From Pimelobacter simplex (lineage in GTDB: Bacteria; Actinomycetota; Actinomycetes; Propionibacteriales; Nocardioidaceae): 64,000 nt of DNA. Shown here piece by piece: positions 7,295-25,346 of this stretch. A program made the translations under genes and the position numbers. Under the pieces are notes generated by a model. It did no database searches. It had not been told where the DNA came from and worked only from the letters and a program-made list of their open reading frames with translations. The DNA is taken from the NCBI GenBank assembly GCA_016803235.1, contig JADCLI010000005.1, forward strand, positions 110,634 to 174,633, in the 5' to 3' direction. Numbering within the stretch: the stretch's first letter is position 1; each line of letters begins with the position of its first letter.

Positions 7295-7887
7295 TTGATC
7301 TCCACCGCCACCTGGTCGAGGCCCTCGAGGAGCCAGCGGTCGCCGACCTTGACCAGGTCGGCGGCGAACCGGTTGCGCTTCACGCTCGGCACGGCGGACG
7401 GGTCGGCGTCGTTGCGGACCGTGACCTCGACCGACGCGATCACCGTGGCGGTGCTGGCGGTGAGGTCGAGGACGGCGGCGTCGACGACCTTGCCGGTGGA
7501 GACCATCTGCTGGTCGGCCATCAGCTGGCGGGTCTCGGCGTCGGTCGCCGCGATCTGGTCCTTGAGGGTGCCGGTCGTGACGTCCTGCCACCTCTCCAGG
7601 CCACCATCGACGTCGTCGTGATCGAGGGTGTTCATCGTCTCGATGTGGCTGCGGGCCGTGATCAGCACCGTGTCGCGCAGAGCGGCTCGCGCCACGGCCG
7701 CCTCGTCGTGGTCGCCGGCACGCTGCCAGGAGACGACACCGGCGACCAGCGCCACCACGGCCAGCACCAGCAGGCCCAGCTCGACCGAGCGGCGTCCGGA
7801 CGACTGCGGTGACTCCGGGGGCCTCTGCGTCACGTCCTCGTCGCTGATCTCGATCTCCTCCACGTCGTGCCCGAATCCCGTGGTCAT
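7291..7887 (-). CDS. Mce-associated membrane protein (Mas type), proximal
   Basis: 198 residues. An acidic cytoplasmic head (EEIEISDED) is followed by a transmembrane helix (ELGLLVLAVVALVAGVVSW) and the same domain as the next gene, ending in DRWLLEGLDQVAVEIK, parallel to the TWKVTGIEPL ending of its neighbour. The two are therefore diverged duplicates. The ATG shares one base with the stop of the last Mce gene (TGATG), and the stop overlaps the next start, so three genes are tightly coupled. The expected role is an accessory of the Mce lipid importer at the membrane; this rests on family knowledge and position. Confidence 0.85.
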   Translation of the reverse strand: MTTGFGHDVEEIEISDEDVTQRPPESPQSSGRRSVELGLLVLAVVALVAGVVSWQRAGDHDEAAVARAALRDTVLITARSHIETMNTLDHDDVDGGLERWQDVTTGTLKDQIAATDAETRQLMADQQMVSTGKVVDAAVLDLTASTATVIASVEVTVRNDADPSAVPSVKRNRFAADLVKVGDRWLLEGLDQVAVEIK

Positions 7888-9065: not shown

Positions 9066-9066
9066 G

Positions 9067-11482: not shown

Positions 11483-12507
11483 GAGCCACCTCCGGGTCGG
11501 CAGTCGCGGACCACGTCGTTGTCGAGGACCGGCGCGCCCTGCGCGTCGAACAGGCCGCAGATGTAGGAGTCGAGCCAGCGGCCGTTGCCCATCGCCGCGG
11601 TGAGCATCCGGTAGTAGGGACCGAGCACCTCGAGCGCGTCGCCCAGGTGCTTCTGGTTGCGGCGCAGCATCGCCGCGACCTTGTCGAGCTTCTCCAGCGC
11701 GGGCCTCAGCTGCTCCCGGTTGTCGCGTACGACGCCCGCGAGCTCCCGCCCCAGGGTGGTGGTGGCCTCGAGCATCTGCCGGATCGACTCGCGCCGGTTG
11801 GCCAGCTCGGTGAGCAGCAGGTTGCCGTCGTCGACGAGCTTGCCGATCTCGTCGTTGCGGGCGGCGAGGGTGTCGGTGACGCCGGCCGTGGAGCGGAACA
11901 GCCTCGCCAGCTCCTCGTCGCGGCTGGAGATCGTGCGCGAGAGCCGGGTCAGTCCCTCGACCATGCCGCGCACCGACTCGGGGGTGTTGGCGAAGACCTG
12001 GGACAAGGTGGCCATGCCCTGCTCGAGCCGGGCGGTGTCGATCTCGCCGATGGTCGAGGACAGGTCGGAGAAGGCCGCGTTGACGTCGTACGGCGTCGTG
12101 GTGTGCTCGAGCGGGATCGGCTCGTCGAGCGCCTCGGTGCCGAGCGGGTCGACGGCGAGGTACTTCTGGCCGAGCAGGGTCTTGATCTTGACCGCCGCCG
12201 TCGACTCGCTGCCGATCTCGACGCCCTTGGCCCGGAAGCTGACCAGGACCCGGTCGCCGACGAGGTCGACGTCGGTCACCTTGCCGACCTTCACGCCGGC
12301 CACCCGCACCTCGTCGCCGGCCCGCAGGCCCGCGGCCTCGGCCAGGTAGGCCTGGTGCCTCGCTCCGCCGCCGACGACCGGCAGGTCCTCGGCGTAGAAG
12401 GTGGCGAAGAAGGTGGCGACGAGGGCGACGATGCCGATGACGGCGATCACCACCCGGTTCCGCTCCGCGAACGCGGTCGGGAACCGGCGCTGCGTGCGCG
12501 CGGCCAT
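11479..12507 (-). CDS. Mce family protein, third of operon (MceC position)
   Basis: 342 residues from ATG 12507, which shares a base with the upstream stop. The anchor (VVIAVIGIVALVATFFATF) is followed by the Mce domain (VRVAGVKVGKVTDVDL, KIKTLLGQKYLAVDP) and the helical needle region (TISSRDEELARLFRST, LEKLDKVAAMLRRNQ). The family C-terminal signature YICGLFD with a downstream Cys (VRDCRPG) suggests a disulfide in the periplasm. Pairing of the motif with its neighbour (NFYLCSIEG in MceB) shows the same ancestor. Confidence 0.92.
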   Translation of the reverse strand: MAARTQRRFPTAFAERNRVVIAVIGIVALVATFFATFYAEDLPVVGGGARHQAYLAEAAGLRAGDEVRVAGVKVGKVTDVDLVGDRVLVSFRAKGVEIGSESTAAVKIKTLLGQKYLAVDPLGTEALDEPIPLEHTTTPYDVNAAFSDLSSTIGEIDTARLEQGMATLSQVFANTPESVRGMVEGLTRLSRTISSRDEELARLFRSTAGVTDTLAARNDEIGKLVDDGNLLLTELANRRESIRQMLEATTTLGRELAGVVRDNREQLRPALEKLDKVAAMLRRNQKHLGDALEVLGPYYRMLTAAMGNGRWLDSYICGLFDAQGAPVLDNDVVRDCRPGGGS

Positions 12508-13544
12508 CAGCGGCACCTCCCCGCGACCGGCTGCACGCCGAGGTCGCCGTAGTAGCCCTCGGGCAGGGGGATCCGGCCCTCGATCGAGCAGAGGTAGAAG
12601 TTGACCCACGAGCCGTAGCTGGCGATCCTCGCGAGTCGCTGCACCTTCGTGGGCAGGGTCGCGAGTGCCTTGTCGATGACGTCCTCGTTGTTGGCCAGCA
12701 CTCCCGACAGGTCACCGAGCGCCCTGATGGAGCGCTTGAGCGGGGCGCGTCCCTCGTCGAGCAGGCCGGCGACGCTCTCGGACAGGTCGCCCATCCCGTC
12801 GATCGTCGAGCCGATGGTCTCGCGGTCCGCCGCGAGACCGCTGACCAGCTGCTGGAGGGTGACCAGCGTGGTGTCGAGCTGGCCGGAGCGCTCCTCGACG
12901 ACACCGAGGACCGAGGACAGGTTGGTGATCAGCTGGCCGATCACCTGGTCGCGGTCGGCGAGGGTCGAGGTGAGACTGGCGGTGCTCTTCAACAGCCCCT
13001 CGACGGTCGGGCCCTCGCCCTGGAAGACCGCGATGACCTGGGCGCTGAGGTTGTTGACGTCGGCGGGGTCGAGCAGCCGGAACAGCGGCTGGAAGCCGTT
13101 GAACAGCACGGTCAGGTCGAGCGCCGGCTGGGTCGCGTCGAGGCCGAACACGTGGCCGGGCGCGAGCCGCACGCCGGTCACGTCGCCGGGCTCGAGGGCG
13201 ACGTACCGCTGGCCGACGAGGTTGCGGAAGCGCAGCAGGGCGCGGGCGCCGGTGCCGAGGGGTGCGGTGTCGGCGACGGTGAAGCTCACCCGGGCGACCC
13301 GGTCGTCGCTGACCTCGACGCCGGTCACGGTGCCGACCTTGACGCCGGCCATCCGCACGTCGTCGCCCTTGTTGAGGCTGGTCGCGTCGCTGAACATCGC
13401 GACGTACTCGTTGCTGGGGCCGCTGGCTCCGTTGCGGATGGTGCCGGCCAGGGCCAGCGTCGCCAGGACCGTGACGACGGCGAAGACCAACGCCTTGGTC
13501 AGGGTCACGGCCAGCCCGGTGCGGGAACTGGTCACCCGGGTCAT
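12507..13544 (-). CDS. Mce family protein, second of operon (MceB position)
   Basis: 345 residues. Membrane anchor LVFAVVTVLATLALAG, Mce domain with VRMAGVKVGTVTGVEV and RFRNLVGQRYVALEPG, then a needle region with repeated small-residue helices. The C-terminus carries GSWVNFYLCSIEGRI, the conserved Mce end motif with a Cys, and ends QPVAGRCR. The ATG overlaps the MceA stop by four bases. Mce chains of this group bind and shuttle hydrophobic molecules (sterols, mycolates or phospholipids in mycobacteria); the cargo here is unknown. Confidence 0.92.
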   Translation of the reverse strand: MTRVTSSRTGLAVTLTKALVFAVVTVLATLALAGTIRNGASGPSNEYVAMFSDATSLNKGDDVRMAGVKVGTVTGVEVSDDRVARVSFTVADTAPLGTGARALLRFRNLVGQRYVALEPGDVTGVRLAPGHVFGLDATQPALDLTVLFNGFQPLFRLLDPADVNNLSAQVIAVFQGEGPTVEGLLKSTASLTSTLADRDQVIGQLITNLSSVLGVVEERSGQLDTTLVTLQQLVSGLAADRETIGSTIDGMGDLSESVAGLLDEGRAPLKRSIRALGDLSGVLANNEDVIDKALATLPTKVQRLARIASYGSWVNFYLCSIEGRIPLPEGYYGDLGVQPVAGRCR

Positions 13545-14836
13545 CGGACCTCCACCTCCGCGCCGCGCAGCAGCGGCCCGACCAGCAGGCTGCTCCAGGT
13601 CGGGTAGTCGGCCGGGCTGACCCCGGCCGCCGGGGCCATCAGCTCGGCGATCAGCTGGTTCTCGGCGGGCGAGTTCGCCTCGCCCAGCCCGGCGGCGTCG
13701 GCGAGCACGCGCTGCACCCGGTCGCTCGGCGGCGGCAGGATCCGCTCGGGCCCACCCTCGGTGCCGCGCGACGCCACCGGCTTGACGCTGCCGTCCTGGT
13801 AGGGACAGCGCGGCGCACCCTTCGCGAGGTAGGTCGGGTCGTCCTTGCCGAGGACGTAGCGGCCGCGATCGGGGGTCACGTTGAGCACGACGTGGACACC
13901 CGGCTCGGCGGTGCCCTTGCCGAGGGTCTTGTCCATGACCGGGACGAAGTCGCGCAGCGCCTTGAACAGGCAGGGGAACTGCACGGCGTACGGCGCCACC
14001 GCCTCCAGCGCCTTCCGGCTCTCCTTCGACAAGGTGATGACCGTGCCGGAGTTGGCGACCATCCAGCCGTTCGTGTCGTCGGCCGCGACGACGACGCCCG
14101 CGAACAACCTGGTCATCGCGGTCCGCTCGTCGGCGAGGGTGCGCGAGGTGGTCGTCATCGACTCCAGCGCGTCGAGCAGGTCAGGCGCGGCGTCGGCATA
14201 GGTCTGGGCGACCCGGCCGAAGGCGGCGAGGTCGTCGGACAGCTGCGGCGTCAGCGGGTTGAGCTTCGCGAGGTACTCGCCCCACGCGACGAGGTTGTCC
14301 CCGATGTCGCCACCCCGGCCGCGCAGCATCAGGGCCAGCTCGCCGAGGGTGGCGGACAGCTTGTCGGGCTGGATCGCCTGCAGGACGGGCAACAGCTCGT
14401 CGAACAGCTCCTCCAGCTCGACGGCCGAGGCCGAGGAGTCCTGCTCGATCGTGTCGCCGGCCCGGAGGGTGGCGCCACCGGCGCGCGGACGGACCAGGGC
14501 GACGTACCGCTCACCGAAGAGGGTCTTCGGCAGCAGCCGGGCGGTGGTGTCGACCGGCAGGTCGTCGAGCACGTCGGGCTCCAGGGCGAGGGTGAGGACC
14601 GCGCCGCCGTCGCGGGGCTCGATCTCGGTCACCTTGCCGACCGGGACGCCGTTGAGCTTCACGTCGGATCCTCTCTGCAGCGCGCTGCCGACGGTGCCGG
14701 TGGTCAGCCGGATGTCGCTGCGGTCGACGAACACCTGGTTGTAGGCGAGCCACGTGCCGGCGCCCAGGGCGAGCACCAGGCCGCCGTACCCCAGGCCGAG
14801 GAGGAGGTCGCGAGCCCGGCCCCAACCGCCGCTCAT
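13541..14836 (-). CDS. Mce family protein, first of operon (MceA position)
   Basis: 431 residues from ATG 14836, chosen over an ATG 33 bp upstream because it makes the usual ATGA overlap with yrbEB. It is the longest chain besides MceE. The anchor is LLLGLGYGGLVLALGAGTWLAY; the Mce domain has VKLNGVPVGKVTEIEP and LPKTLFGERYVAL; the helical region is followed by a C-terminal globular part that has AVQFPCLFKAL and APRCPYQDG, two Cys likely to be disulfide-bonded. The extended C-terminus (about residues 300-431) is typical of MceA-position proteins. Confidence 0.92.
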   Translation of the reverse strand: MSGGWGRARDLLLGLGYGGLVLALGAGTWLAYNQVFVDRSDIRLTTGTVGSALQRGSDVKLNGVPVGKVTEIEPRDGGAVLTLALEPDVLDDLPVDTTARLLPKTLFGERYVALVRPRAGGATLRAGDTIEQDSSASAVELEELFDELLPVLQAIQPDKLSATLGELALMLRGRGGDIGDNLVAWGEYLAKLNPLTPQLSDDLAAFGRVAQTYADAAPDLLDALESMTTTSRTLADERTAMTRLFAGVVVAADDTNGWMVANSGTVITLSKESRKALEAVAPYAVQFPCLFKALRDFVPVMDKTLGKGTAEPGVHVVLNVTPDRGRYVLGKDDPTYLAKGAPRCPYQDGSVKPVASRGTEGGPERILPPPSDRVQRVLADAAGLGEANSPAENQLIAELMAPAAGVSPADYPTWSSLLVGPLLRGAEVEVR

Positions 14837-15672
14837 CCGGCGATCCGCACGGTCGTGGTGGTGCCCCACATCGCCATCGACAGGGCGAGGTCGAGCACGG
14901 CGACGACGACGAGGGTGCGGCGCACCGACCGGCCCACGGCGACGCCGACGCCGGCCGGCCCGCCGCGGGCGAAGAAGCCGAGGCGGCAGTGGATGAGGAT
15001 GACCAGCACCGCGAAGACGAGCACCTTCCCGAAGCTGAGCAGGATGTCGACCGGGGGCAGGAAGAGCTGGAAGTAGTGGTCGTAGGTGCCCGCCGACTGC
15101 CCGCGCAGCTGCACGGTGACCATCCGGCTGCCGGCGTACGACGTCAGCAGGCCGATGACGTAGAGCGGGATGATCGCGATGAACCCGGCGACGACGCGGG
15201 TCGAGACGAGGAAGGGCACCGCGTCGAGCCCGATCACCTTGACCGCGTCGATCTCCTCACTGATCCGCATCGCGCCGAGCTGGGCGGTGAAGCCCGCGCC
15301 CACGGTGGCGGACATGGCCAGCGCCGCGACGAGCGGCGCGATCTCGCGGGTGTTGAAGTAGGCGGAGATGAAGCCGTTGAGGGTGCTGGTGCCGATCTGG
15401 TCGAGGGCGGCGTACCCCTGCAGGCCGACGACGGTGCCGACGAACAGGCTCATCCCGGTCATCACGCCGACGGTGCCGCCGATGACGGCGAGCGCGCCGG
15501 TGCCGAAGCTGACCTCGGACAGGACCCGCCAGACCTCCTTCGGGTAGAGCCGCACGGCGGTCGGGATGCCGGCGATCACCCGTCCGTAGAACCGGATGTC
15601 CTTGCCGGTCTGGGCGACCCGGTCGAGGCGGCGGTCCCACCAGGGCCGTTTGGCGACGGCGACGGTGCTCAT
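14833..15672 (-). CDS. YrbE/MlaE-family ABC permease, second permease of Mce operon (YrbEB)
   Basis: 279 residues, the normal MlaE length. Five to six membrane helices are visible, with the family core IAPLVAALAMSATVGAGFTA, then the coupling sequence ISEEIDAVKVIGLDAVPFLV, whose EEIDA-GLD pattern is diagnostic of MlaE permeases. It pairs with the permease half of the upstream fusion to form the transmembrane dimer of the Mce importer. It starts within the stop of the upstream gene (one shared base) and overlaps mceA by four bases. Confidence 0.93.
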   Translation of the reverse strand: MSTVAVAKRPWWDRRLDRVAQTGKDIRFYGRVIAGIPTAVRLYPKEVWRVLSEVSFGTGALAVIGGTVGVMTGMSLFVGTVVGLQGYAALDQIGTSTLNGFISAYFNTREIAPLVAALAMSATVGAGFTAQLGAMRISEEIDAVKVIGLDAVPFLVSTRVVAGFIAIIPLYVIGLLTSYAGSRMVTVQLRGQSAGTYDHYFQLFLPPVDILLSFGKVLVFAVLVILIHCRLGFFARGGPAGVGVAVGRSVRRTLVVVAVLDLALSMAMWGTTTTVRIAG

Positions 15673-17447
15673 CAGGCTCCCTTCCCGGGCACCAGCTCGA
15701 GGTAGAGCGTGGTGACGACGAAGTTGACGAAGAACAGCAGCAGGAAGGTGACGACGACCGACTGGTTGACCGACTCCCCCACCCCCTTCGGCCCGGGGCG
15801 CGTGTTGAGGCCGCGGTACGCCGCGACGACACCGGCGAGGAAGCCGAAGATGACCGCCTTGATCTCCCCCACGACGAGGTCGGGGATCTGGGCGAGCGCG
15901 GTGAAGCTCGCGAGGTAGGCGCCCGGCGTACCGCCCTGGATGACGACGTTGAAGAAGTAGCCGCCGAGGACGCCGACCACGGAGACCAGGCCGTTGAGCA
16001 GGACGGCGGCGACGACGCACGCGAGGACCCGGGGTACGACGAGCCGTTGCACCGGGTCGACGCCGATCACCCGCATCGCGTCGATCTCGTCGCGGATGGT
16101 CCGCGACCCGAGGTCCGCGCAGATGGCGGCACCTCCCGCTCCCGCGATCACCAGCGTGGTCACGATCGGCGCCGCCTGCTGCACGACGGCCAGCACCGAC
16201 GCCGCACCGGTGAACGACTGGGCACCGACCTGGACGGTCAGGGTGCCGAGCTGGAGCGCGATCACCGCGCCGAAGGGGATGGCGATCAGCATCGCCGGGA
16301 CCCACGAGACGCTGGTGACGAACCAGAACTGGTCGAGGGCCTCGCGCGCCGCGAACGGCCGGCGGAAGGCGGCCCGGATCGTGTCGAGCCCCAGCGCGAA
16401 GAAGGCACCCGTCTGGTCGAGGGCGCGGGAGACCGGGTCGGGCCGGACGACGGCAGGGGGTCGGTCCGCCTCCTCGTCGTCGGCGACGTACAGGCTCGCC
16501 TCGCCGCTCGCGACCCGGCGCGCGTGCCGCTCGGTCGCCGGGCGCGGCAGCCCGCTGGCGGGCAGCAGCTGGCGCGGCAGCACCTCGATCGCCCGGGCGC
16601 CGGCACGCACCATCGTCGGCGCCCCGGACGGGCCGTCGACCGGGTAGCCGTAGTCGTCGAGCAACGGCGCGTTGCTGGAGTGGTCGACCTCCTCGCTCAT
16701 GCCGATCGGGCCGACCGGGTCGCCGGCCATGAACTGCGAGACGACCGGGTGGTCGGTCAGCAGGAACTGCTCGCGCGGGCCGTACATCACCAGCTGGCGG
16801 CGGTAGAGCATGCCGAGGTTGTCCGGCAGGGTGCGGGCCAGCTCGATGTTGTGGGTGACCACGAGCATCGTCGCGTCGGTCTGCGCGTTGACGTCGAGCA
16901 GCAGCTGGGCGAGGTTGGCGGTGCGCACCGGGTCGAGGCCGGAGTCGGGCTCGTCGCAGAGGATGATCTCGGGCTCGGTGACCAGCGAGCGGGCCAGGCC
17001 GGCGCGCTTGCGCATGCCACCGGAGATCTCGCCCGGCAGCTTGTGCTCCTGACCGAGCAGGCCGACCATGTCCAGCTTCTGCATGGCGATCTCGCGCACC
17101 TGCGTCTCGTTCTTGCGGGTGTGGGCGCGCAGGGGGAAGGCGACGTTGTCGTAGACGCTCATCGAGCCGAACAGCGCGCCGTCCTGGAAGAGCACGCCGA
17201 ACTTCTTGCGCAGCTCGAGCCGGTGCGACTCCTTGGCCGTCACCATGTCCACCCCGTTGACCAGGCACCGCCCGGCCTCCGGCTTGAGCAGGCCCATCAA
17301 CGACTTGAGGAAGACCGACTTGCCGGTGCCGGACGGTCCCAGCAGCGCGGTGATCTCCCCCGGCTCGAGGGTGAGCGTCACGTCGCTCCAGATGTTCTGG
17401 GAGCCGAAGCTCTTCGTGAGTCCGGTGACCTCAACGGTGCCGCCCAT
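15672..17447 (-). CDS. Fused Mce ATPase (MceG/Mkl-like) and YrbE/MlaE permease (YrbEA)
   Basis: 591 residues in one uninterrupted frame. Residues 1 to about 255 are an ABC ATPase: Walker A GPSGTGKS (37-44), Q-loop LFQDGALFG, signature ISGGMRKRAGLARSL, Walker B IILCDEPDSGLDP, switch His VVTHN. A linker of roughly 90 residues, rich in Pro and acidic residues, follows. Then comes a complete MlaE permease (APIVTTLVIAGAGGAAICADLG, IRDEIDAMRVIGVDPVQRLV). In mycobacteria and most actinobacteria these are separate genes, with mceG often elsewhere. No stop or obvious internal ribosome-binding site interrupts the linker. The ATPase powers lipid import; as a fusion, the stoichiometry with the single YrbEB would give one or two ATPase domains per importer. 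Confidence 0.92.
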   Translation of the reverse strand: MGGTVEVTGLTKSFGSQNIWSDVTLTLEPGEITALLGPSGTGKSVFLKSLMGLLKPEAGRCLVNGVDMVTAKESHRLELRKKFGVLFQDGALFGSMSVYDNVAFPLRAHTRKNETQVREIAMQKLDMVGLLGQEHKLPGEISGGMRKRAGLARSLVTEPEIILCDEPDSGLDPVRTANLAQLLLDVNAQTDATMLVVTHNIELARTLPDNLGMLYRRQLVMYGPREQFLLTDHPVVSQFMAGDPVGPIGMSEEVDHSSNAPLLDDYGYPVDGPSGAPTMVRAGARAIEVLPRQLLPASGLPRPATERHARRVASGEASLYVADDEEADRPPAVVRPDPVSRALDQTGAFFALGLDTIRAAFRRPFAAREALDQFWFVTSVSWVPAMLIAIPFGAVIALQLGTLTVQVGAQSFTGAASVLAVVQQAAPIVTTLVIAGAGGAAICADLGSRTIRDEIDAMRVIGVDPVQRLVVPRVLACVVAAVLLNGLVSVVGVLGGYFFNVVIQGGTPGAYLASFTALAQIPDLVVGEIKAVIFGFLAGVVAAYRGLNTRPGPKGVGESVNQSVVVTFLLLFFVNFVVTTLYLELVPGKGA

Positions 17448-17486: not shown

Positions 17487-18518
17487 TCATGGCTGCTCGG
17501 GGGTGGTCGGGCTGGTGGGCACGCCGGTGAACCCGGTCGTGGGCCCGTCGGTCGGCTCGCTCGTCGGGTCCTCCGACGCCTCGTCCGTGGGGGTGGGCGT
17601 GGGCGTCGGCGTGGGCGTCGGCACGGCCGGCATGCCGGTGGGCGGGGTCGCCGACGGCGTGCTCGGTGCCGCGAGCGCGTCGACCGGGTCGCCCAGGAGC
17701 CGGGCCCGGGTGCAGGCGCACTCCTCGGGCAGCACCGGCAGCGGCGAGGGGAGGGGTACGACGTCCAGCGGGGCAGACTGTCGCGCGTAGCGGTGCGCGA
17801 GGCGCAGCACGGTGCGCACGAAGCCCCGCGCCGGGTGGTACGCCGCCAGCGAGGCCCGCAGGCCGCGCCGGGTGTGGAGGTCGTGGCCCGCGCACAGCCG
17901 CACGGCGGCGGCCAGGGACGCATCGTCGATGTCGCGCGGGTCGCGGACTCCGTCGGCGTCGGCGTCGACCGCGGCGCTGGTCCAGGTCGTCGGCATCAGC
18001 CGGAACGGCCCGACGGGAGCGTCCCACCGCGGGTCCCCGTCGAGCACGCCGCCGTCGGTGTCGGCGACCTCTCCGCGCCGGCCGCCGCCGTCGAGCGGCC
18101 TCCCGACGGCGGGTCCGCGACCGTGGTCGGACTCGACCCGGCCGATCGCCGCCAGCACCGTCCAGTCCAGGCGGCAGGCACCGGCGGCGTCGAGCACCGC
18201 CGCCGCCCGCTGGTAGGCCGCGAGCGCCTCGGGCGGCGCGGAGCCGAGCGACCCCGGGAAGTCGCTCGGTCCCCCGACCCGCGGACGCCGTACGACGGCA
18301 GCCGGGTCCACCGCGACCGCGGGTGCGGCCGCGATGCTCGGCGCGGTGGTCGCGCTCCTCGGCGCCCCGTGGTGCGCCGGGGCCGGCGCGGCATCGTCGG
18401 CCGCGGTGCGCAGCACCTGGACGACGCCGCCGGCGAGCCCGGCGGTGGCGAGCACGACGCCGAGCACGGCGATGGCGACGCCGCGGCGGGTGTGCACCCT
18501 GCGAGCTGCCCGAGACAT
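17487..18518 (-). CDS. Secreted or membrane-anchored murein transglycosylase (MltB/SLT_2-like), first gene of Mce operon
   Basis: 343 residues. Signal anchor (GVAIAVLGVVLATAGLAGGVV), then a lysozyme-like domain with LDWTVLAAIGRVESDHGRG, whose Glu matches the catalytic acid, and VGPFRLMPTTW, the substrate-cleft GPFQ-MP motif. An Asp-rich DADADGVRDPRDIDDASLAA calcium-like loop follows, also typical of this group. The C-terminus is a Thr-Pro repeat tail, probably wall-spanning. It cleaves the glycan strand of peptidoglycan. It lies 39 bp before the ATPase-permease fusion in the same direction and is the first gene after a control region holding two TTGTCA-N6-TGACAA palindromes, which suggests it opens the wall for the Mce complex. 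Confidence 0.82.
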   Translation of the reverse strand: MSRAARRVHTRRGVAIAVLGVVLATAGLAGGVVQVLRTAADDAAPAPAHHGAPRSATTAPSIAAAPAVAVDPAAVVRRPRVGGPSDFPGSLGSAPPEALAAYQRAAAVLDAAGACRLDWTVLAAIGRVESDHGRGPAVGRPLDGGGRRGEVADTDGGVLDGDPRWDAPVGPFRLMPTTWTSAAVDADADGVRDPRDIDDASLAAAVRLCAGHDLHTRRGLRASLAAYHPARGFVRTVLRLAHRYARQSAPLDVVPLPSPLPVLPEECACTRARLLGDPVDALAAPSTPSATPPTGMPAVPTPTPTPTPTPTDEASEDPTSEPTDGPTTGFTGVPTSPTTPEQP

Positions 18519-18626
18519 GGCCCTCCCTCTCTGTGGCTACCGTCACACGACTCGCGGCTCAGTCAAGGCGGCACACGGGGGCGGAGCCAGAGTCCGCCGG
18601 CAATTCGCCGGGCGACGTGGCGGATG

Positions 18627-18644
18627 TTGTGACGCGGGTGACAA
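18627..18644. promoter_or_regulatory. Palindrome TTGTGA-N6-TGACAA, proposed operator of transglycosylase-mce operon
   Basis: The 18-bp site differs from the perfect half-site TTGTCA at one base and shares the CGCGGG spacer with the site at 22937. It is 109 bp from the ATG at 18518 (start to nearest edge), exactly the same distance as between the site at 22842 and the GTG of the minus-strand PucR gene. With flanking G and C the palindrome extends to 20 bp. Confidence 0.65.
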
Positions 18645-18710
18645 CTTTTGGCGCCGGCAGCCCGCAGGACTGACAGCCGGCGGCCGCGCGAGCGACCGCC
18701 GGCGACCGCG

Positions 18711-18728
18711 TTGTCAGCGCGGTGACAA
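18711..18728. promoter_or_regulatory. Palindrome TTGTCA-N6-TGACAA, second operator of transglycosylase-mce operon
   Basis: A perfect inverted repeat with spacer GCGCGG, extended by G/C to 20 bp. It starts 84 bp from the start of the proximal site, close to eight helical turns, so both copies face the same side of the DNA. It is in the region between the terminator of the preceding gene (18759-18789) and the transglycosylase start. Confidence 0.68.
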
Positions 18729-18758
18729 CGCGGTGCGCTCAGGGCAGGAAAGACGAAG

Positions 18759-18789
18759 GAGCCGCCGACCCGTCGCGGGCTGGCGGCTC
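18759..18789 (-). terminator. Hairpin terminator after the secreted protein gene
   Basis: GAGCCGCC (18759-18766) pairs with GGCGGCTC (18782-18789), and the loop itself contains CCCG/CGGG. On the minus strand it is followed by a T-rich stretch (CTTCGTCTTTCC), as expected for an intrinsic terminator. It separates the transcript of the 18815-19966 gene from the transglycosylase-mce operon. Confidence 0.65.
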
Positions 18790-18814
18790 TCTCGTCGCAG
18801 GATGGAGCGGGTCG

Positions 18815-19966
18815 TCAGTCGTCGTCCGGCAGCGGCGGGCGGTCCGGCGCGTCAGGGCCGGGCAGCGGGCACTGCCCGCCGAACGGCGAGCAGGCCGAGA
18901 TGTCCCGCAGCACCTCGCGGGGGAAGGGTTCGCCCGGGGCGACCTCGTGCGAGACGACGGGCTTCTGCACCGCCCGCACCGGGTTGTTCGGACCCGACGC
19001 CATGGCAGTCACCAGCGGGCTCAGGTCGTCGCCACCGGTGCCACAGCCGGTGAAGGGCGGCACGTCGACGCCGGTCGAGGCGGGAATCGTCCTGCCCCTG
19101 CTCTCGACGTAGACCGGCGAGTCGAGGGGGCCGAGACTGCCGGGGTGCAGACCGTCGTACGCACCGAGGGGCCCGCCGGAGTTGGGGCTGTAGGCCCCGC
19201 GGTCCGTCTCGCCCCACAGCCGCAGCTCGGTGGAGCGGACGGTTCGGCAGTGCGGGCCGAGGTCGACAGGGACGCCGTCGACCTCCAGGTCGGAGAGCGA
19301 GATGTCGATCCTCCCCTCGATGAGCGCGGTCAGTGCGGGCGCGTCGAACTCGGGATCGCAGCCGATCGTGGCCGCGCTGCTGGTGGACCAGATCTGAGCG
19401 AGCAAGGGGGTGACCTTGCCGCCCTCCCGAGCCGAGCGCATCGTGAGCGTCGCCGTCGCGGGGAGGGATCCGAAGGCGACCAGGCGGACCGGAACCCGCC
19501 CGACCAGTCCGACGTCGACGCCGCCGTCCACACGCCCGACGGGGTAGATCAGCGACCTGAAGAAGCTCCCGCGCTTCTGCGTGGAGAGGTCGTCGGTCGC
19601 GCACGCGGGCTGGTAGAAGGGGTCGGGAACGCAGGGCCGTCCGCGCGAGCAGAGGGCAGCGAACGTGCTCGGATCCTCGATCGGCCAGTTGTAGAGCCCG
19701 TTGTAGAGCAGTCCCCAGACCGGGGAGTCGCCACCCATGGTGATGTACATCCTCGAGCGGGGGACGACGGCGCCCTGGGAGGTGGTGACCACTCCTTCAC
19801 CGCCGCCGCTGATGCGGGTCTGCGGAAGGTCTTGCTCGCCGGGGATCGGGTCGCCCGGCGCGCTGCTGCTGGGCATCGACAGCAGGAGCAGCACCAGCCC
19901 GACGAGGCAGGTGACAGCGATCGCACGCTTCGTCCGGGGGGCGCTGCGGGGGTGGCGAGCTCGCAT
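18815..19966 (-). CDS. Secreted protein of unknown function, Mce-linked (paralogue of 20768-21511)
   Basis: 383 residues. Signal sequence (AIAVTCLVGLVLLLLSMPSSSA), then a predicted all-beta extracellular protein with six or more cysteines. Parts align by eye with the secreted protein at 20768-21511: IDISLSDLEVDG...GPHCRTVRSTELRL here matches YDIRLSSVEAKV...GSNCHTVEPVTINA there, and PPFTGCG matches SFTGCTP. This one adds about 130 residues (including a MYITMGGDSP stretch) at the N-terminal side. The tail is Pro/Asp-rich. No known domain is recognised. Its position just upstream of the Mce operon suggests an envelope role in the same lipid pathway. Confidence 0.7.
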   Translation of the reverse strand: MRARHPRSAPRTKRAIAVTCLVGLVLLLLSMPSSSAPGDPIPGEQDLPQTRISGGGEGVVTTSQGAVVPRSRMYITMGGDSPVWGLLYNGLYNWPIEDPSTFAALCSRGRPCVPDPFYQPACATDDLSTQKRGSFFRSLIYPVGRVDGGVDVGLVGRVPVRLVAFGSLPATATLTMRSAREGGKVTPLLAQIWSTSSAATIGCDPEFDAPALTALIEGRIDISLSDLEVDGVPVDLGPHCRTVRSTELRLWGETDRGAYSPNSGGPLGAYDGLHPGSLGPLDSPVYVESRGRTIPASTGVDVPPFTGCGTGGDDLSPLVTAMASGPNNPVRAVQKPVVSHEVAPGEPFPREVLRDISACSPFGGQCPLPGPDAPDRPPLPDDD

Positions 19967-20034
19967 GATGACCGGTGACCTCCGAGGGATCCGAGAGGGA
20001 CGTTAGTACAGGGCAGGTCCGGGTGGACGTGCCT

Positions 20035-20066
20035 CAGCCGGTGGCGCGGGTGCGCGCCACCGGCTG
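20035..20066 (-). terminator. Strong hairpin after the middle secreted protein gene
   Basis: CAGCCGGTGGCGC (20035-20047) pairs with GCGCCACCGGCTG (20054-20066), a 13-bp perfect stem with a 6-base loop, placed 16 bp after the stop at 20082 (minus strand). It lacks a clear T run. It likely ends the transcript of the two upstream secreted-protein genes. Confidence 0.6.
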
Positions 20067-20081
20067 GGGTTCAGGGCGGGC

Positions 20082-20735
20082 TCACGGGTTGGAGATGTCC
20101 AGGGCCGCGCTGCCGGTGGGCGGGGTGTTGGTCCAGTAGCCGCCGACCGCGATCGTGTCGCCGGGCTGCAGGTCGAGGGTCACGCACATGCTGCCGGTCG
20201 GCGCGCCCGCGCCGCCGTCGATGGTGAGCCCGGACGCTCCGGAGGCGGGCGTGAACCGCTGGTTGCTGTCGTCGAACCTGCCGTTGACGACACCGGTGAC
20301 GCCGAAGGTGCAGTTGGCGGCGCTGACCGTCGCCTTGACGTTCTTCAGCTGGGCGGGCCACGAGGTCCCGGTGGCGTCGCCGGTGACCGCCACGGTCCAG
20401 GTGCCCACCGGGGTGACGGTGGTGGCACCGGCGAGCGGGTTGGTGCAGCCGCTCGAGGACAGGCTGCCGAGCGTGCCGCCGTCGGCGCCGTAGGGCCGGC
20501 TCGAGCCGGAGCTGATGATCGATCCGCTCAGGTCGAACGTCGTGCAGGTGAGCGTCTGTGCCGCCTCGATGTCGGTGAAGCTGACGCTGGTGCCGACGAA
20601 GCTGGCGCTGAGGCCGCCGGTCGGCGTGTACGTCGTGGCGGCCTGCGCGGCGGTGGCGGTCATCGCGACGACCGTGCTGGCGGCGGCGGCCGTCGCGAGG
20701 AGGCCGGTCGCGAGGCGGTGGGTGCGGTTCTTCAT
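20082..20735 (-). CDS. Secreted beta-rich protein of unknown function, Mce-linked
   Basis: 217 residues from ATG 20735, preceded by GAAGGAG. It has a clear Sec signal peptide ending AQAATTYTPT (cleavage near Ala30). The mature protein is Thr/Ser/Gly-rich with five or so cysteines (TLTCTTFDLSG, SSSGCTNPL, AANCTFGV, SMCVTLDLQ) and a Gly-rich DGGAGAPTG turn, probably a beta-sandwich. It ends ALDISNP, parallel to LDLSNPRPPA in the neighbour, a weak sign of common origin. It lies 32 bp after that gene in the same direction, so the two are likely one transcript. No recognised domain. Confidence 0.72.
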   Translation of the reverse strand: MKNRTHRLATGLLATAAAASTVVAMTATAAQAATTYTPTGGLSASFVGTSVSFTDIEAAQTLTCTTFDLSGSIISSGSSRPYGADGGTLGSLSSSGCTNPLAGATTVTPVGTWTVAVTGDATGTSWPAQLKNVKATVSAANCTFGVTGVVNGRFDDSNQRFTPASGASGLTIDGGAGAPTGSMCVTLDLQPGDTIAVGGYWTNTPPTGSAALDISNP

Positions 20736-20767
20736 GGGGTTCTCCTTCGTGGGGTGGGGGGTGGAGC

Positions 20768-21511
20768 TCACGCCGGGGGGCGCGGGTTGGAGAGGTCGAG
20801 CGACAGCGTGTTGTCGGTGCCGGGCACGAGCGCGTTGATCGGGATCGACCCGAAGGTCGGGAAGAAGCCGGGGATGTCGAAGAAGTTCAGCGGCGTGCAG
20901 CCGGTGAAGCTCCCGATCGTGTACGTCGCGGTGAGCGGGCCGCCGCCGTTGATGGTGAAGTAGCCGGTCGGCGGGGTGGTGCTGTCGTCGATCGGGCTGC
21001 TGGCGTTGATCGTGACCGGCTCGACGGTGTGGCAGTTGCTGCCGACGGCCAGCGGCCACCAGATCCCGAACACCTTGGCCTCGACGCTGCTCAGCCGGAT
21101 GTCGTACTTGACCTGCGACTCGAGGTCGAGCGCCTGGCGCGGCGAGGGCAGCTTGGTCAGCGTGCCCGTGACGGGGCCGACCTGGGTCATGGTGACGGTG
21201 GCCCGGGTCGGGATGCCGAAGACGTCGAAGGTCATCACCTGGCTGGGGATGCTCATCGTGCCGTCGACGATCGGCGTCGGGAGCGCCGCGAGCGTGTCGA
21301 TGGTGACCTCGATGGTGGTCGGGCCGATGGGCATGTCGGCGTCGACGTGGGCACCGACGTGCGTGGAGCCGACGGCGTCGTACACGACGGAGAGGTGGCC
21401 GGTGTCGTCGGCCTGCGCGGCGGGTACGGCGACCGCGCTCGCCATCGCGGCGAGCACGGCGACCGCGCCCACGAGCAGCGAGCGCCGGCGTCGGCGGGGG
21501 GTGGTGGTCAC
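20768..21511 (-). CDS. Secreted beta-rich protein of unknown function, Mce-linked
   Basis: 247 residues from GTG 21511, chosen because AGGAGGA precedes it at the right distance and it leads directly into an Arg-rich signal peptide (TPRRRRRSLLVGAVAVLAAM) ending AQADD. The mature chain alternates polar and hydrophobic residues, with MPIGPTTIEVTIDT, IPTRATVTMTQVGP and an NCHTVEP...SFTGCTPLNFFDIPGF pair of cysteines. It aligns by eye with the protein at 18815-19966. It is the first gene on the minus strand after the regulator pair. Function unknown; a role in presenting or binding the Mce substrate outside the membrane is possible. Confidence 0.74.
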   Translation of the reverse strand: MTTTPRRRRRSLLVGAVAVLAAMASAVAVPAAQADDTGHLSVVYDAVGSTHVGAHVDADMPIGPTTIEVTIDTLAALPTPIVDGTMSIPSQVMTFDVFGIPTRATVTMTQVGPVTGTLTKLPSPRQALDLESQVKYDIRLSSVEAKVFGIWWPLAVGSNCHTVEPVTINASSPIDDSTTPPTGYFTINGGGPLTATYTIGSFTGCTPLNFFDIPGFFPTFGSIPINALVPGTDNTLSLDLSNPRPPA

Positions 21512-21623
21512 GGGGGTCCTCCTGGGGGTTCGGGTGCTGTCACTCTTCGAAGCGGCATCGGGGCGGGTCAACGAGGAAGCCCCGCAGGTGCGGGAAATCC
21601 GGACGCCCGTCCGGACGGTGTGC

Positions 21624-22733
21624 TCATCCACGCGCCACCTCCGCGCGCCAGCCGTCGAGTGCGGCGTGGAGGGCCAGGACGACGGCCGCGTGGGACGCGG
21701 GCTCGTCGATCGCGGGCCCCAGCAGCCGCCGGCCCTGCCGGAGCCGGTCGTGGGCGGTCTGCTTGGCGATGTGGTGCGCCGCGGCGACCTCCGCGAGCGA
21801 GGCCCGGGTCTCCAGCCACGTCAGCAGCACCTCGCCGATCTCGACGCGCCGGGCGGGCCGGAGCGCACGCAGCTGGGCGAGGTACTTGTCGACGAGCAGG
21901 TCGGCGAGAGCGGGGCGCCCGGCGACGAGCAGCTCGGCGGCGACGTCGGCGCACGACGTGACGGGACGCTCGGTGCGGATCACCCCGGCCCGGATCGCGG
22001 CGGCGGCCTGCCGGGCGAGCTGGAGCGACTCGGCGACGTCGGCGGCCGGCCGGGCCGGCCCGGTGACGACCCGGTCCTCGGGCTCGAGCCCGGGCACGGA
22101 CCCGTCCGGCACGAGCAGGGCGCGGCCGGTCGGGTCGACGAGCACGTCGGGAGGAGGATCGGGCGGACGCGGCGCCGTGCCGGACACCCACACCACCGGC
22201 AGGTACGCCGCGGCCGGGTCGATGCCGGCCAGCACCAACAGCTCCTCGGGCACCGCCGCCGACGCGAAGACCGCCCGCGCGACCATGTCGCGCCGTGCGT
22301 CGGGGGCCAGCGCCATCATCGTGCGGGCCTGGCGGTGCCCGGCGAGCGCGGCACGGTGCAGCTGGTCGAGGAAGCGCTCCAGTCCGCCGCGCAGCGCGTC
22401 GCGCTCCTCGCGCGGGCAGACCCGGGCGATCACCTGGTCGGCACGCCTGGTCCGCTCGTCGACGACCTGGCGCAGGTCCCGGCTGAGCCGCTCCGCGCTG
22501 TGTCCCCTGACGGCGGCCCTCCGGCCGATCCCCATCAGGGTCGGGCCGACCTGGCGCACGGCGTCCTCGAACCGCCCGTCGGCCACGACGAACGCGCGGG
22601 TGGCGACCACGACCGAGTGGGCGACCGCGGGAGGCAGCGGCCGGTCGGCCGCATCCAGGTCGCCGCACAGCACGGCCACCAGGGCGTCGCCGTCGGCGAC
22701 GTCCCCCCACCGGCGGATCGCGCTCCCGATCAC
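21624..22733 (-). CDS. PucR-type (CdaR/PucR C-terminal HTH) transcriptional regulator
   Basis: 369 residues from GTG 22733, chosen because AGGAGGGAG precedes it; an in-frame upstream start at 22826 lacks such a signal and would run into a palindrome-bearing control region. The C-terminus matches the PucR HTH family: VLLTWLETRASLAEVAAAHHIAKQTAHDRLRQGRRLLG. The N-terminal two-thirds is helical, resembling the divergent regulator at 23122, and probably senses a ligand. The two regulators are diverged paralogues on either side of two palindromic sites. The target is probably the neighbouring lipid-import locus. Confidence 0.82.
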   Translation of the reverse strand: MIGSAIRRWGDVADGDALVAVLCGDLDAADRPLPPAVAHSVVVATRAFVVADGRFEDAVRQVGPTLMGIGRRAAVRGHSAERLSRDLRQVVDERTRRADQVIARVCPREERDALRGGLERFLDQLHRAALAGHRQARTMMALAPDARRDMVARAVFASAAVPEELLVLAGIDPAAAYLPVVWVSGTAPRPPDPPPDVLVDPTGRALLVPDGSVPGLEPEDRVVTGPARPAADVAESLQLARQAAAAIRAGVIRTERPVTSCADVAAELLVAGRPALADLLVDKYLAQLRALRPARRVEIGEVLLTWLETRASLAEVAAAHHIAKQTAHDRLRQGRRLLGPAIDEPASHAAVVLALHAALDGWRAEVARG

Positions 22734-22841
22734 GTCGGCTCCCTCCTGCGGCGCCCGGGCTGGTCCGCGGTACGAGCCAGCCACAGCGCTCTCGCCGCGG
22801 GCAAGGGCCGACCGCTCCGGCGGCACTCGGTGGCCCTTTCC

Positions 22842-22859
22842 TTGTCAGGCACGTGACAA
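22842..22859. promoter_or_regulatory. Palindrome TTGTCA-N6-TGACAA between divergent PucR genes, copy 1
   Basis: Perfect half-sites with spacer GGCACG. It begins 109 bp from the GTG of the minus-strand regulator, the same offset as the site at 18627 from its gene. It is followed by a CGTCACGTG partial half-site. Confidence 0.68.
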
Positions 22860-22936
22860 CCGTCACGTGGTCGGCGGCCCGGGCCCGGCGCCCCTCCCCC
22901 AGCGGTACGACGCCCGCGGCCCCGGCCGCCCGAGAC

Positions 22937-22954
22937 TTGTCACGCGGGTGACAA
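22937..22954. promoter_or_regulatory. Palindrome TTGTCA-N6-TGACAA between divergent PucR genes, copy 2
   Basis: Perfect half-sites with spacer CGCGGG, identical in spacer to the site at 18627. It starts 95 bp from copy 1, near nine helical turns, and lies 168 bp before the chosen start of the plus-strand regulator. The 388-bp gap 22734-23121 holds no gene; these two sites are its only recognisable content. Confidence 0.68.
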
Positions 22955-23121
22955 ATTCCCCCGTGCGTCGACGGGCGGAGGTATGTTCCACGACACACCG
23001 GTGGGGCCGGTGGGGAGGGACTGGACATGCACGCGAGCAACTCGGGCCGCCCGTCCACGGCGACCACGGGCTGGTGAGCCGCAAGGCGCTGGAGTCCGGC
23101 GATGAGGCAGGGCGGGAGTCG

Positions 23122-24354
23122 ATGAGGGCGGCGCCGCCGCGGGCCGCACTGCCCGGCTCGGCCCAGTGGATGATCAGCAGCTTGGAGGGCCGGGTCCGCG
23201 AGGTCGCCGAGCAGGTGACCGACCAGGTCCGCTCCGGCGTACCCGGGCTCGAGGACCCCGCCGACGCGCGCCTGCTCGACCTGGTCTTCACCGCGGTGCA
23301 CAACGCGATGCGGGTCTTCGTCGACGAGGCGCTGGGCCGCGAGGTGTCCTACCTGCCGGTCGAGGACATGTTCCGCAAGGTCGGCTACCGGGTCGCCCTG
23401 CGCGGCCGCGACCTGGACACGATCGACCAGGGCATGGGCATCGCGGTCGGGGTGATCTCCGACGAGCTGCGGGTCAGCGCCGCCGAGAACGAGCTCTCTG
23501 CCGGTGCCCTCAACGCCATCAACGACGCGGTCACCCTCTTCGTCGGCCAGCTCACCGAGCAGATCGGGGTGGGCTACCGCGCCGGCGCCCAGGCGCGCAG
23601 CACCGACACCGGACTGGCCCGCGCCCGCCTGCTGGCCGCCCTGCTGTCCGGTGCCGACGCCGACGAGGTCGAGACCCAGGCCGCGATCGCCGGCTGGGAC
23701 GTGCCCGACCAGGTCACCGTGATCGCCGTCGAGACCGGCGGCGCGGCGCTGCGCGCCGATGCCCTCGGCCCGCAGGCGCTCACCCGGACCGGGCGCAGTC
23801 CGCAGCCGGTCGTCTGCGCGACCGCCGACGCCGACGAGGTGGTCGCGGCGATCCACCGGGCCGCGCCGAAGGCGCGGGCGTCCGTGTGCTGGCCGGTTCC
23901 CCACGGCGACGCGAGCGCCGCATGGACCTGGGCCACCCGCGCGCTGTCCCTCGTCGAGGCCCGCGTGATCCCGGCACGGCCGGTCGTGGAGTGTGTCCGC
24001 TTCCGCACCGAGATCTGGCTGCACGCCGAGCCGGTGCTGCGCCGCCAGCTCGCGCAGGAGCTGCTGCAGCCGCTGTTCAACGAGACCGAGAACTCCCGCG
24101 AGATCCTCTCCGAGACCCTGCTCGTCTGGCTCGAGACGCGCGACAGCGCGCCCGCCATCGCGGCCCGGCTGGGCGTGCACCCCCAGACCGTGCGCTACCG
24201 CTGGAAGCGGATCAACGAGCTGTTCGGCGACGCGCTGCACGATCCCGACTTCGTCGTCCAGCTGACCCTGCTGCTCAAGGCCAGCGTCCCGCTGTGGATC
24301 GCCGGCGACCAGAGCGACTTCCGGAGGTTCCGCGAGCAGGAGGAGACCGGATGA
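23122..24354 (+). CDS. PucR-type transcriptional regulator, likely regulator of the Mce locus
   Basis: 410 residues from ATG 23122, preceded by GGGCGGGAG at rather short spacing; a GTG at 23074 is an alternative. The N-terminal half is a helical RsbT-like/PucR sensory region; the C-terminus is the typical PucR HTH_30 domain (ETLLVWLETRDSAPAIAARLGVHPQTVRYRWKRINELFG). PucR proteins often act as activators responding to a metabolite. Its stop overlaps the start of the P-type-ATPase-like gene by four bases, so both are made together. It is divergent from the other PucR gene with two shared palindromes between. Confidence 0.85.
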   Translation: MRAAPPRAALPGSAQWMISSLEGRVREVAEQVTDQVRSGVPGLEDPADARLLDLVFTAVHNAMRVFVDEALGREVSYLPVEDMFRKVGYRVALRGRDLDTIDQGMGIAVGVISDELRVSAAENELSAGALNAINDAVTLFVGQLTEQIGVGYRAGAQARSTDTGLARARLLAALLSGADADEVETQAAIAGWDVPDQVTVIAVETGGAALRADALGPQALTRTGRSPQPVVCATADADEVVAAIHRAAPKARASVCWPVPHGDASAAWTWATRALSLVEARVIPARPVVECVRFRTEIWLHAEPVLRRQLAQELLQPLFNETENSREILSETLLVWLETRDSAPAIAARLGVHPQTVRYRWKRINELFGDALHDPDFVVQLTLLLKASVPLWIAGDQSDFRRFREQEETG

Positions 24355-25346
24355 CCCCAGCCCTGGTCGCCTGCGTGCTCCTCGCCGCGCTGCCTGCGGT
24401 GTTCGCCCACGCCGTCCCCGTGGCCCGGTGGGTGGCCCGCGCGCGCGGCCGGGCGGCGGGCGTCTTCCTCGACGACCGCGCGGCCCTGGCGCTCGGCCCG
24501 CGGGTCGACACGGTGCTCCTCGACCGGTGGGGCACGGTCACGACCGGTCAGCTGCGGGTGGTGGCGGTCGACCCGGTCGAGCCCGACCACGAGCGCAACC
24601 TGCGCTGGTTCGCCGGCGCCCTCGGCCACGCCGCCGACGACCCGGTCGGCCGGGCCATCGCCCGGCTCTCCTCGCGCGGCAAGCTCAGCCAGGTCGAGCG
24701 GCACGGCGGCAGCGGCATCAGCGGCTCGGTCGACCGGCACCCCGTACGCCTCGGCCGCCCCGACTGGCTCGGCATGGACGCCCGCGACGACGCCGGTGTC
24801 ACCGTCGGCGTCCAGGTCGACTCCCGCCCGATCGGCTACATCACGGTCGCCGACGACGTCCGTCCCCACGCACCGGAGGACGTCGCCCGGCTGCGCGCCG
24901 ACGGCGTCGAGCCGGTCCTGGTCTCCGAGGACACCGAGCGCAACACCCGCGGCCTGGCCGAGGCCTGCGGCATCGGGCAGTGGTACGCCGACCGGCCGGC
25001 CGACGACCGCGCCGAGCTGGTCGACGAGCGGCGGCGCGGTGGTCACGTCGTCGCGGTCGCCGGTCCCGCAACGGTCCCGGAGGCCGACCTCGTGCTCACC
25101 GACGCCGACGTCGGCCACGGGATCCGGCTCGCCGACCTCGACGTCGGCCGGGTCGCGACCGCGCTCGCCCTCACCCGGAGCGCGGCCCGCGCGGCGACCC
25201 GCTCACGTCGTACCGGACTCGGGGTGGGGGTCGCCGGCGCGGCACTGGCAGCGGCCGGCGTCCTGGCCCTGCCCCTGGCGATCGGCTGGGCGGTCGTCGG
25301 CTGTGGAGCCGTGGCCCTGGTCGCGGTCGGTCGCGCCCCGTCGTGA
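24351..25346 (+). CDS. P-type-ATPase-like HAD protein with degenerate motifs, coupled to the PucR gene
   Basis: 331 residues. It resembles the catalytic P- and N-domains of a heavy-metal P-type ATPase without the transport helices. One hydrophobic segment starts the protein, and a helix pair ends it (GLGVGVAGAALAAAGVLALPLAIGWAVVG). The phosphorylation motif DKTGT appears as DRWGT (Asp58); the region of TGD appears as LVSEDTERN and the GDG(V)ND region as VAGPATVPEADLVLTDAD. The N-domain glycine motif is GGSGISGSV. Asp58 remains but the hinge motifs are altered, so ATP-driven transport is unlikely; a sensory or signalling role is possible. The ATGA overlap with the PucR regulator argues for a joint function. 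Confidence 0.72.
   Translation: MTPALVACVLLAALPAVFAHAVPVARWVARARGRAAGVFLDDRAALALGPRVDTVLLDRWGTVTTGQLRVVAVDPVEPDHERNLRWFAGALGHAADDPVGRAIARLSSRGKLSQVERHGGSGISGSVDRHPVRLGRPDWLGMDARDDAGVTVGVQVDSRPIGYITVADDVRPHAPEDVARLRADGVEPVLVSEDTERNTRGLAEACGIGQWYADRPADDRAELVDERRRGGHVVAVAGPATVPEADLVLTDADVGHGIRLADLDVGRVATALALTRSAARAATRSRRTGLGVGVAGAALAAAGVLALPLAIGWAVVGCGAVALVAVGRAPS

Follow-up and report, generated by a model that had tools for sequence, protein, structure and literature searches.

A 64-kb stretch of the Pimelobacter simplex genome (contig JADCLI010000005.1), termed the window here, contains four copies of the palindrome TTGTCA-N6-TGACAA in the control regions of an operon for an Mce-type lipid importer and of two divergent genes for the PucR-type regulators PucR1 and PucR2. 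In the P. simplex genome the sites are private to this locus. They are conserved in related genomes, where they co-occur with PucR1 and lie at a fixed distance from a -10-like element, and the DNA-reading helix of PucR1 is near-invariant. Judged from sequence comparison, PucR1 probably binds the four palindromes and activates the Mce importer operon, genes for secreted proteins, its own gene and companion PucR genes. The binder, activation, the start sites, a ligand and DNA looping are what we infer from these properties.

Operator sites and their distribution

At up to two mismatches the palindrome is found exactly four times in the window, at 18627, 18711, 22842 and 22937. The initial annotation had placed four sites here, three perfect and one with a single mismatch, and the pattern scan agrees. 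Operator 1 (18627–18644) is the promoter-proximal site of the transglycosylase-mce operon and reads TTGTGA-N6-TGACAA on the plus strand, with one mismatch in one half. Operator 2 (18711–18728) is perfect and is the distal site of the same control region; both lie between 18815, where the neighbouring gene ends, and the start of a transglycosylase-like gene at 18518. Operators 3 (22842–22859, PucR2-proximal) and 4 (22937–22954, PucR1-proximal) are also perfect and are found between the divergent PucR2 (start at 22733) and PucR1 (start at 23074 or 23122) genes. No strand is assigned to any of the four. Gene calls are from a simple caller of our own, with approximate start codons, and genes may be missed. 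A C5 to G change in one half is the commonest one-mismatch variant, present in 40 of the 75 distinct one-mismatch sites in the fetched loci, and thus the operator 1 mismatch is the commonest natural variant.

The palindrome is rare. Dinucleotide shuffles of the window give 0.24 expected matches, and none of 100 shuffles gave four. In the whole genome (5,361,574 bases, 82 contigs) the four window sites are the sole places at up to one mismatch, with two places for a control pattern read backwards. Many random occurrences would have counted against the initial annotation, and the full-genome scan shows few. The chance of four random places all falling within 4.4 kb is about 2e-9. At up to two mismatches there are 30 places in the genome and eight for the control. 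Eleven of the 26 extra two-mismatch places were inspected, and five are inside called genes and six are intergenic, one of these resembling a CRP site; they were rejected as hidden members of the regulon.

The operators are conserved between species. Operator 1 is found in all seven aligned genomes, and operator 2 in six of seven, at a spacing of 84–117 bp and degenerate in L067. Operators 3 and 4 are each conserved in six aligned genomes. P. simplex ATCC 6946 (L138) has this locus as well. Perfect sites are present in 35 of 215 genomes of the genus, with 102 sites in total versus three for the reversed pattern. They are found in 31 of the 34 genomes that have a fused ATPase-permease gene, MlaFE, at 77% identity or higher, versus four of the 181 others (G034, G141, which has a 70% fusion, G213 and G227). 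Conservation near mce in relatives, which the initial annotation had set as a test, was therefore found. Together with rarity, it supports the proposal of a defined operator tied to the mce locus and probably bound by one of the PucR pair. G034 does not carry the fused mce operon, and its single perfect site lies elsewhere. Privacy to the Mce locus, which had also been claimed, holds in the P. simplex genome but not in some relatives (G081, G062, G120 and G144), which have distant sites.

Sites are found directly ahead of the importer genes. Of the 34 MlaFE fusions of the genus, 25 have a site at up to one mismatch within 420 bp upstream. In seven more a first gene is inserted and the site precedes it, at up to 1.7 kb from MlaFE; G170 and G133 have no such site. 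Among the 47 distinct MlaFE genes of all loci, a set that mixes site-chosen and site-blind loci, 38 have a site within 420 bp and six more at 1.1–1.3 kb. No site at up to one mismatch is found within 1.7 kb of MlaFE in L068, L111 and L156, of which L111 and L156 have two-mismatch sites. A control palindrome for counts at MlaFE and PucR1 loci (ACTGTT-N6-AACAGT, up to one mismatch) is found within 420 bp of none of the 47. The 34 fusions, as well as 44 PucR1 loci, were chosen regardless of sites, although many of the 44 repeat the same genomes; loci L025–L032 and L117–L136 were chosen partly around sites, and site frequencies there are biased.

Of the 184 sites in the fetched loci, five overlap one end of a called gene and none is contained entirely within one. 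The genes behind the sites are those of MlaFE, PucR1, PucR2, a further regulator termed PucR-B, the transglycosylase and the proteins termed S383, SecA and SecB. In Mumia (L125 and L126) sites were seen only between PucR2 and MlaFE. A perfect site of G001 (L027:9255) has an IMP-dehydrogenase-like gene on one side and, on the other, a short-chain-dehydrogenase gene that heads a same-strand run.

The G081 genome (L092–L098) has ten perfect sites, several far from mce beside unrelated genes. Several of these remote sites share one spacer and have longer matching arms, and some are found between convergent genes. Such features speak for a reading of the palindromes not as operators but as hairpins or terminators in RNA, or as small-repeat copies. 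This is very improbable for the sites as a whole, as the window sites are in upstream or divergent control regions, the inspected flanks differ between sites, and those at mce stand at a constant distance from a -10-like element. The terminator or repeat reading was rejected for the window sites because of their control-region position and differing flanks, a rejection that does not extend to the remote G081 sites.

PucR1 as the candidate binder

PucR1 (23074–24354, plus strand, with GTG 23074 or ATG 23122 as start) and PucR2 (21624–22733, minus strand) both have the C-terminal HTH_30 domain, with E-values of 2.1e-16 and 1.7e-8 and scores of 59.9 and 34.5 bits (cut-off 27). The domain search found no TetR or GntR domain in either protein, and control of these types by the PucR pair was therefore rejected. 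Nor is there a match at E up to 0.001 in either protein to PF07905, the N-terminal PucR domain, which excerpts of PMC7652997 name as the mark of the PucR family. In its place the PucR1 model has a globin-like N-terminus, as does MabR (Rv2242) of mycobacteria.

The occurrence of sites follows that of PucR1. Within the genus, 36 genomes have PucR1 at 180 bits or more, in two cases as a partial gene; perfect sites are present in 33 of these 36 versus two of the 179 without PucR1. In an order-wide sample of 391 genomes they are found in 34 of 42 PucR1-positive genomes versus 13 of 349 others, the reversed pattern being present in 10 of the 391. In three further genera all 19 PucR1-positive genomes have sites at up to one mismatch (76 sites, control four). 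The named genera among 44 PucR1 relatives, one genome per species, are Nocardioides, Pimelobacter, Mumia and Aeromicrobium, all of the Nocardioidaceae. The PucR1 genes of G034 (L115) and G062 (L081–L082) are incomplete.

In a tree of 98 PucR proteins PucR1, usually followed by a HAD gene, is separate from PucR2 and PucR-B. With 9 of the 98 rows set aside as ambiguous or truncated, the 28-residue helix-turn-helix (HTH) of PucR1 has a mean pairwise identity of 92% versus 44% for the rest of the protein (49 sequences), or 90% versus 43% when six PucR1-like paralogs are added back. The corresponding values are 45% and 35% for the PucR2 clade (16 sequences) and 61% and 40% for PucR-B (24 sequences). 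Because the DNA-reading part of PucR1 is constant across genomes, the shared operator is best matched by this protein. Sequence thus points to PucR1 as probably the binder rather than PucR2.

The converse arrangement, in which PucR2, or PucR-B in its place in relatives, binds the sites and PucR1 is merely a target, is improbable. PucR2 is indeed divergent from PucR1 across two window sites, and in several relatives PucR-B genes face mce with an intervening site. But genomes with one and the same operator have strongly differing HTHs in these proteins, and sites are kept in G080, G081 and G120, where PucR1 is the only PucR called in the fetched mce region. PucR2, whose HTH varies between species, is a companion regulator and a probable target.

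The PucR1 model (pLDDT 92) suggests a MabR-like build of a non-heme globin-like N-domain, a GGDEF-like domain and an HTH, found by the model alone. The solved C-terminal part of MabR (9f80) is the best solved-structure match of the PucR1 sequence profile (E 1.2e-5), and the model resembles it, whereas the N-terminal half resembles non-heme globin sensors. By fold, the best solved-structure match is again 9f80 (E 1.2e-5), and Foldseek also matches pXO1-118 (prob 1.00, E 0.19) and the RsbR N-domain (prob 0.95, E 1.3); the TM-score to 9f80 is only 0.32/0.49, the domains aligning better than the whole. The two proteins have the same three-part build in the model and share the helix VHPxTVRYRxKRI, but sequence similarity was found only in the HTH.

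In the proposed mechanism PucR1 would have three parts: a sensor that is wholly helical and similar to non-heme globins, a GGDEF-like domain and the helix-turn-helix of PucR proteins. In a dimer each subunit may read one TTGT(C/G)A half-site, the two half-sites being roughly a helical turn apart. The centre of the bound dimer would be near -82 or -92 at mce promoters, compared with about -49 at the PucR1 gene, and from there PucR1 would activate, besides its own and the companion PucR genes, those of the Mce lipid importer and of secreted envelope proteins. A lipid-derived signal probably tunes PucR1, possibly long-chain acyl-CoA, by analogy with MabR only.

Promoter geometry and site spacing

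In 30 non-redundant mce promoters the sequence TANNNT is found at offsets of 58–61 or 69–72 bp beyond the site in 21 of 240 tests versus 2 of 3159 elsewhere. These windows had been defined from the mce promoters, and TANNNT is enriched in them in the other 160 site-gene stretches as well, with 9 of 1218 versus 18 of 15864 (p 7e-5). The two registers are one helical turn apart. With TANNNT taken as the -10 element, the site centres are near -82 and -92. Activators in contact with RNA polymerase typically keep such a fixed face (class I activation). Upstream sites in two registers one turn apart are therefore best read as activation from near -82/-92, with putative start sites placed by the -10-like element.

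Alternatively, PucR1 might act at the sites as a repressor, shutting off its own gene and the mce operon until a lipid ligand releases it. A divergent, autoregulated layout is common for repressors. MabR was moreover first described as a repressor, according to excerpts of PMC11617747. Repression is nevertheless clearly the less likely mode, although the likeliest of the alternatives weighed: the sites are upstream of the putative core promoter at two positions one turn apart, as for an activator touching RNA polymerase, and the PucR-type regulators treated in the passages of PMC7652997 are activators, except for B. subtilis PucR, which has both roles.

At the PucR1 promoter a candidate -10 element, TATGTT (22982–22987, plus strand), is present 27 bp after operator 4, and the block GAGGTATGTTCCA is identical in six genomes. 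At the transglycosylase-mce promoter a conserved TTGACT block (18561–18566, minus strand) lies 60 bp after operator 1, in the register of TANNNT in relatives' mce promoters, and its offset is 60 or 61 in seven of seven genomes. Downstream of operator 1, within 18532–18566 (minus strand), the block CCTTGACT is conserved in the same seven.

A second element, GTGA-N7-CACA (18532–18546, minus strand), is found just before the transglycosylase start at offset 80. It has CRP-like geometry, and GTGA-N7-CAC is kept in six of seven aligned genomes. Many mce promoters show GTGA-N7-CACA-N2-TANNNT 41–44 or 53–54 bp after the site. In 1.28 Mb of loci all 25 matches to GTGA-N7-CACA-N2-TA come 41–54 bp after a site; MlaFE follows directly in 24 cases, and the remaining match is at the end of a locus. 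In 44 further, partly overlapping loci, 11 of 13 matches are near a site and two are not. The outer bases match the CRP consensus TGTGA-N6-TCACA only partly. The element could be part of the promoter, or else be bound by CRP or, as a weak second site, by PucR1.

The palindromes themselves might be bound by CRP or another global regulator. GTGA-N7-CACA equals TTGTGA-N6-TCACAA in half-site geometry, and in G314 (L121:3458-4282) a perfect site precedes an adenylate/guanylate cyclase gene near a PucR2-type gene. However, the sites track PucR1, are nearly absent from relatives that lack it and are few per genome, and a global regulator is thus quite improbable as the binder.

Spacing is less regular than had been thought. 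The nearest site in each control region was said to begin exactly 109 bp from the start codon, and the arithmetic is right (18627 − 18518 and 22842 − 22733), but the figure depends on the chosen start codons. The distance from site to PucR2 start is 109 and 110 in L060 and L059, the closest relatives, but 115, 152 and 158 in L067, L063 and L062. An exact 109-bp rule was rejected, not being conserved across relatives. The twin spacings of 84 and 95 bp also stand as numbers, whereas whole-turn spacing of twin sites was rejected as a general law: over 20 distinct spacings the preference is not significant at 10.5 bp per turn (R 0.32, p ~0.13), with p ~0.04 for the same spacings at 10.3 bp. Of six genomes, five keep operators 3 and 4 exactly 95 bp apart, and the other has 94 bp. 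The DNA between them has 39–47% identity in more distant pairs, and the sites stay at 81–97%. The 84-bp spacing of operators 1 and 2 is common to three genomes with intersite identity to the window of 41–48%; it is 105 bp in two other genomes and 117 in one. The conserved 95-bp spacing would fit looping or cooperation between sites. Paired sites are not obligatory, since 21 of the 25 MlaFE genes of the genus with a site within 420 bp carry a single site and four carry two.

Several observations weigh against activation by PucR1 as set out here. The window operon has TTGACT and not TANNNT at the expected -10 offset, which leaves its promoter unexplained, and the offset of 27 at the PucR1 promoter recurs in only 2 of 18 non-redundant PucR1 promoters. 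No Pfam match was found for the GGDEF-like or sensor parts of PucR1, both of which rest on the model. PucR1 is present without a perfect site in G111, G125 and G133, and the MlaFE of G133 is preceded by just a two-mismatch site. Among the 44 site-blind PucR1 loci, 13 have no site at up to one mismatch in the fetched stretch; these are mostly stretches that do not include an mce operon, although L156 has the operon and only two-mismatch sites. Conversely, G141 and G227 have a perfect site but no PucR1; the G141 site runs into the end of a distant PucR-like gene (27% identity).

The controlled genes and related systems

The operon behind operators 1 and 2 consists, in order, of the transglycosylase-like gene, a fused ATPase-permease, a second permease, six Mce genes and two genes for small proteins. 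All are on the minus strand. The first gene (17487–18518) has a weak SLT_2 match below the cut-off (E 0.0063); a related gene in L025 matches SLT_2 at 6e-14. MlaFE (15672–17447) is one open reading frame in which an ABC ATPase is fused to an MlaE/YrbE permease, and a second MlaE/YrbE permease is encoded at 14833–15672. The six Mce genes are at 7887–14836. MCE-type domains were found in the first and last, the ones tested, and the middle four are assigned by gene order and BLAST similarity to one another. Two Mce-associated small protein genes (6779–7887) close the operon. The locus thus has the two YrbE/MlaE permeases, six ordered MCE proteins and ABC ATPase of an Mce importer, the ATPase being fused to the first permease. 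The fusion is found at 77% identity or higher in 34 of 215 genomes of the genus; many others have a relative of about 60% with a stop between the two parts or within them. Passages of a 2007 survey of mce operons mention one ATPase-permease fusion, in Rhodopirellula. Passages of a transcript study of Pimelobacter/Nocardioides simplex name one mce operon, KstR-linked, which may or may not be the present one.

Genes for three secreted proteins lie on the minus strand between the two control regions. Homologs of S383 (18815–19966) are directly behind 20 of the 184 sites. SecA (20082–20735) is another of the three, and sites precede SecA genes in the fetched loci. SecB (20768–21511) represents a secreted beta-rich protein family of the regulon, with homologs behind sites and an all-beta model (pLDDT 85). 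It matches no Pfam family at E up to 1, and a Foldseek search found no significant relative (best E 0.12), the top matches including barrel proteins. After PucR1 its usual partner gene (24351–25346, plus strand) encodes a HAD/P-type-ATPase-like protein (TIGR01525, E 2.5e-31). The product resembles the catalytic core of metal P-type ATPases, its score being far below the TIGR01525 cut-off. A HAD gene is beside PucR in 43 of 98 PucR rows, usually directly after PucR1.

PucR-type regulators with inverted-repeat operators are already known, as are Mce regulators of other families. GabR, AdeR and PutR bind inverted repeats of 21, 24 and 17 bp, according to excerpts of PMC7652997. GabR of Corynebacterium glutamicum resembles the present system in its divergent regulator-target layout and two inverted repeats per control region; in the excerpted literature it is an activator that binds more strongly with both repeats. 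It differs in lacking a GGDEF-like domain, in its 21-bp repeats, in controlling GABA genes and in that both sites fit a 55-bp fragment. The mycobacterial Mce1R, Mce3R and KstR (Rv3574) are, like PucR1, transcription factors linked to Mce lipid importers, but Rv3574 belongs to the TetR type, and Mce3R is a TetR-like protein whose site is not a palindrome.

Mce1R is GntR-type, and KstR is linked to mce4. No report of PucR-type control of mce, or of a TTGTCA-N6-TGACAA operator, was found among the papers listed in searches of the open-access literature, subscription papers not being covered.

MabR resembles the present system in operator as well as in build. Excerpts of PMC5541348 describe it as an inverted-repeat binder and an activator helped by acyl-CoAs longer than C18, with sites at -87 and -147, an upstream position like that suggested for PucR1. 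MabR test DNA, by our reading of an oligonucleotide in PMC11617747, is TTTTGT-N9-ACAAAA, close to the TTGT-N10-ACAA of the present operator. The latter differs in that its inner bases are specific (CA/TG) and its TTGT and ACAA arms are one base further apart. MabR targets fasII, whereas the putative PucR1 targets are an Mce importer and secreted proteins, and the gene partner of PucR1 encodes a HAD protein. PucR1 is not beside a fasII operon, as a MabR orthologue would be; its neighbours are mce and secreted-protein genes.

To our knowledge, activating control of Mce lipid importers is known for few systems, mostly in pathogens. Environmental bacteria would offer a testable switch with an exact operator, a named candidate binder and a target list, and with a promoter geometry from which the outcome of simple insertions can be predicted. 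Candidates for secreted partners of the Mce importer also come from the target list, and through the tie to MabR a single regulator type would join the control of lipid import to that of lipid synthesis. A more speculative possibility, put forward tentatively, is that a MabR-type regulator, a type hitherto associated with the control of lipid synthesis, was rewired in the Nocardioidaceae as a master switch of lipid import, with a CRP-like second gate and an acyl-CoA positive feedback loop. If so, one operator word and one near-invariant helix would control the Mce importer, uncharacterised secreted beta-rich proteins and the switch itself, acting from either of the two promoter registers one turn apart. 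The GTGA-N7-CACA element over the core promoter would then be the second gate, and acyl-CoA from imported lipid would close the positive feedback loop.

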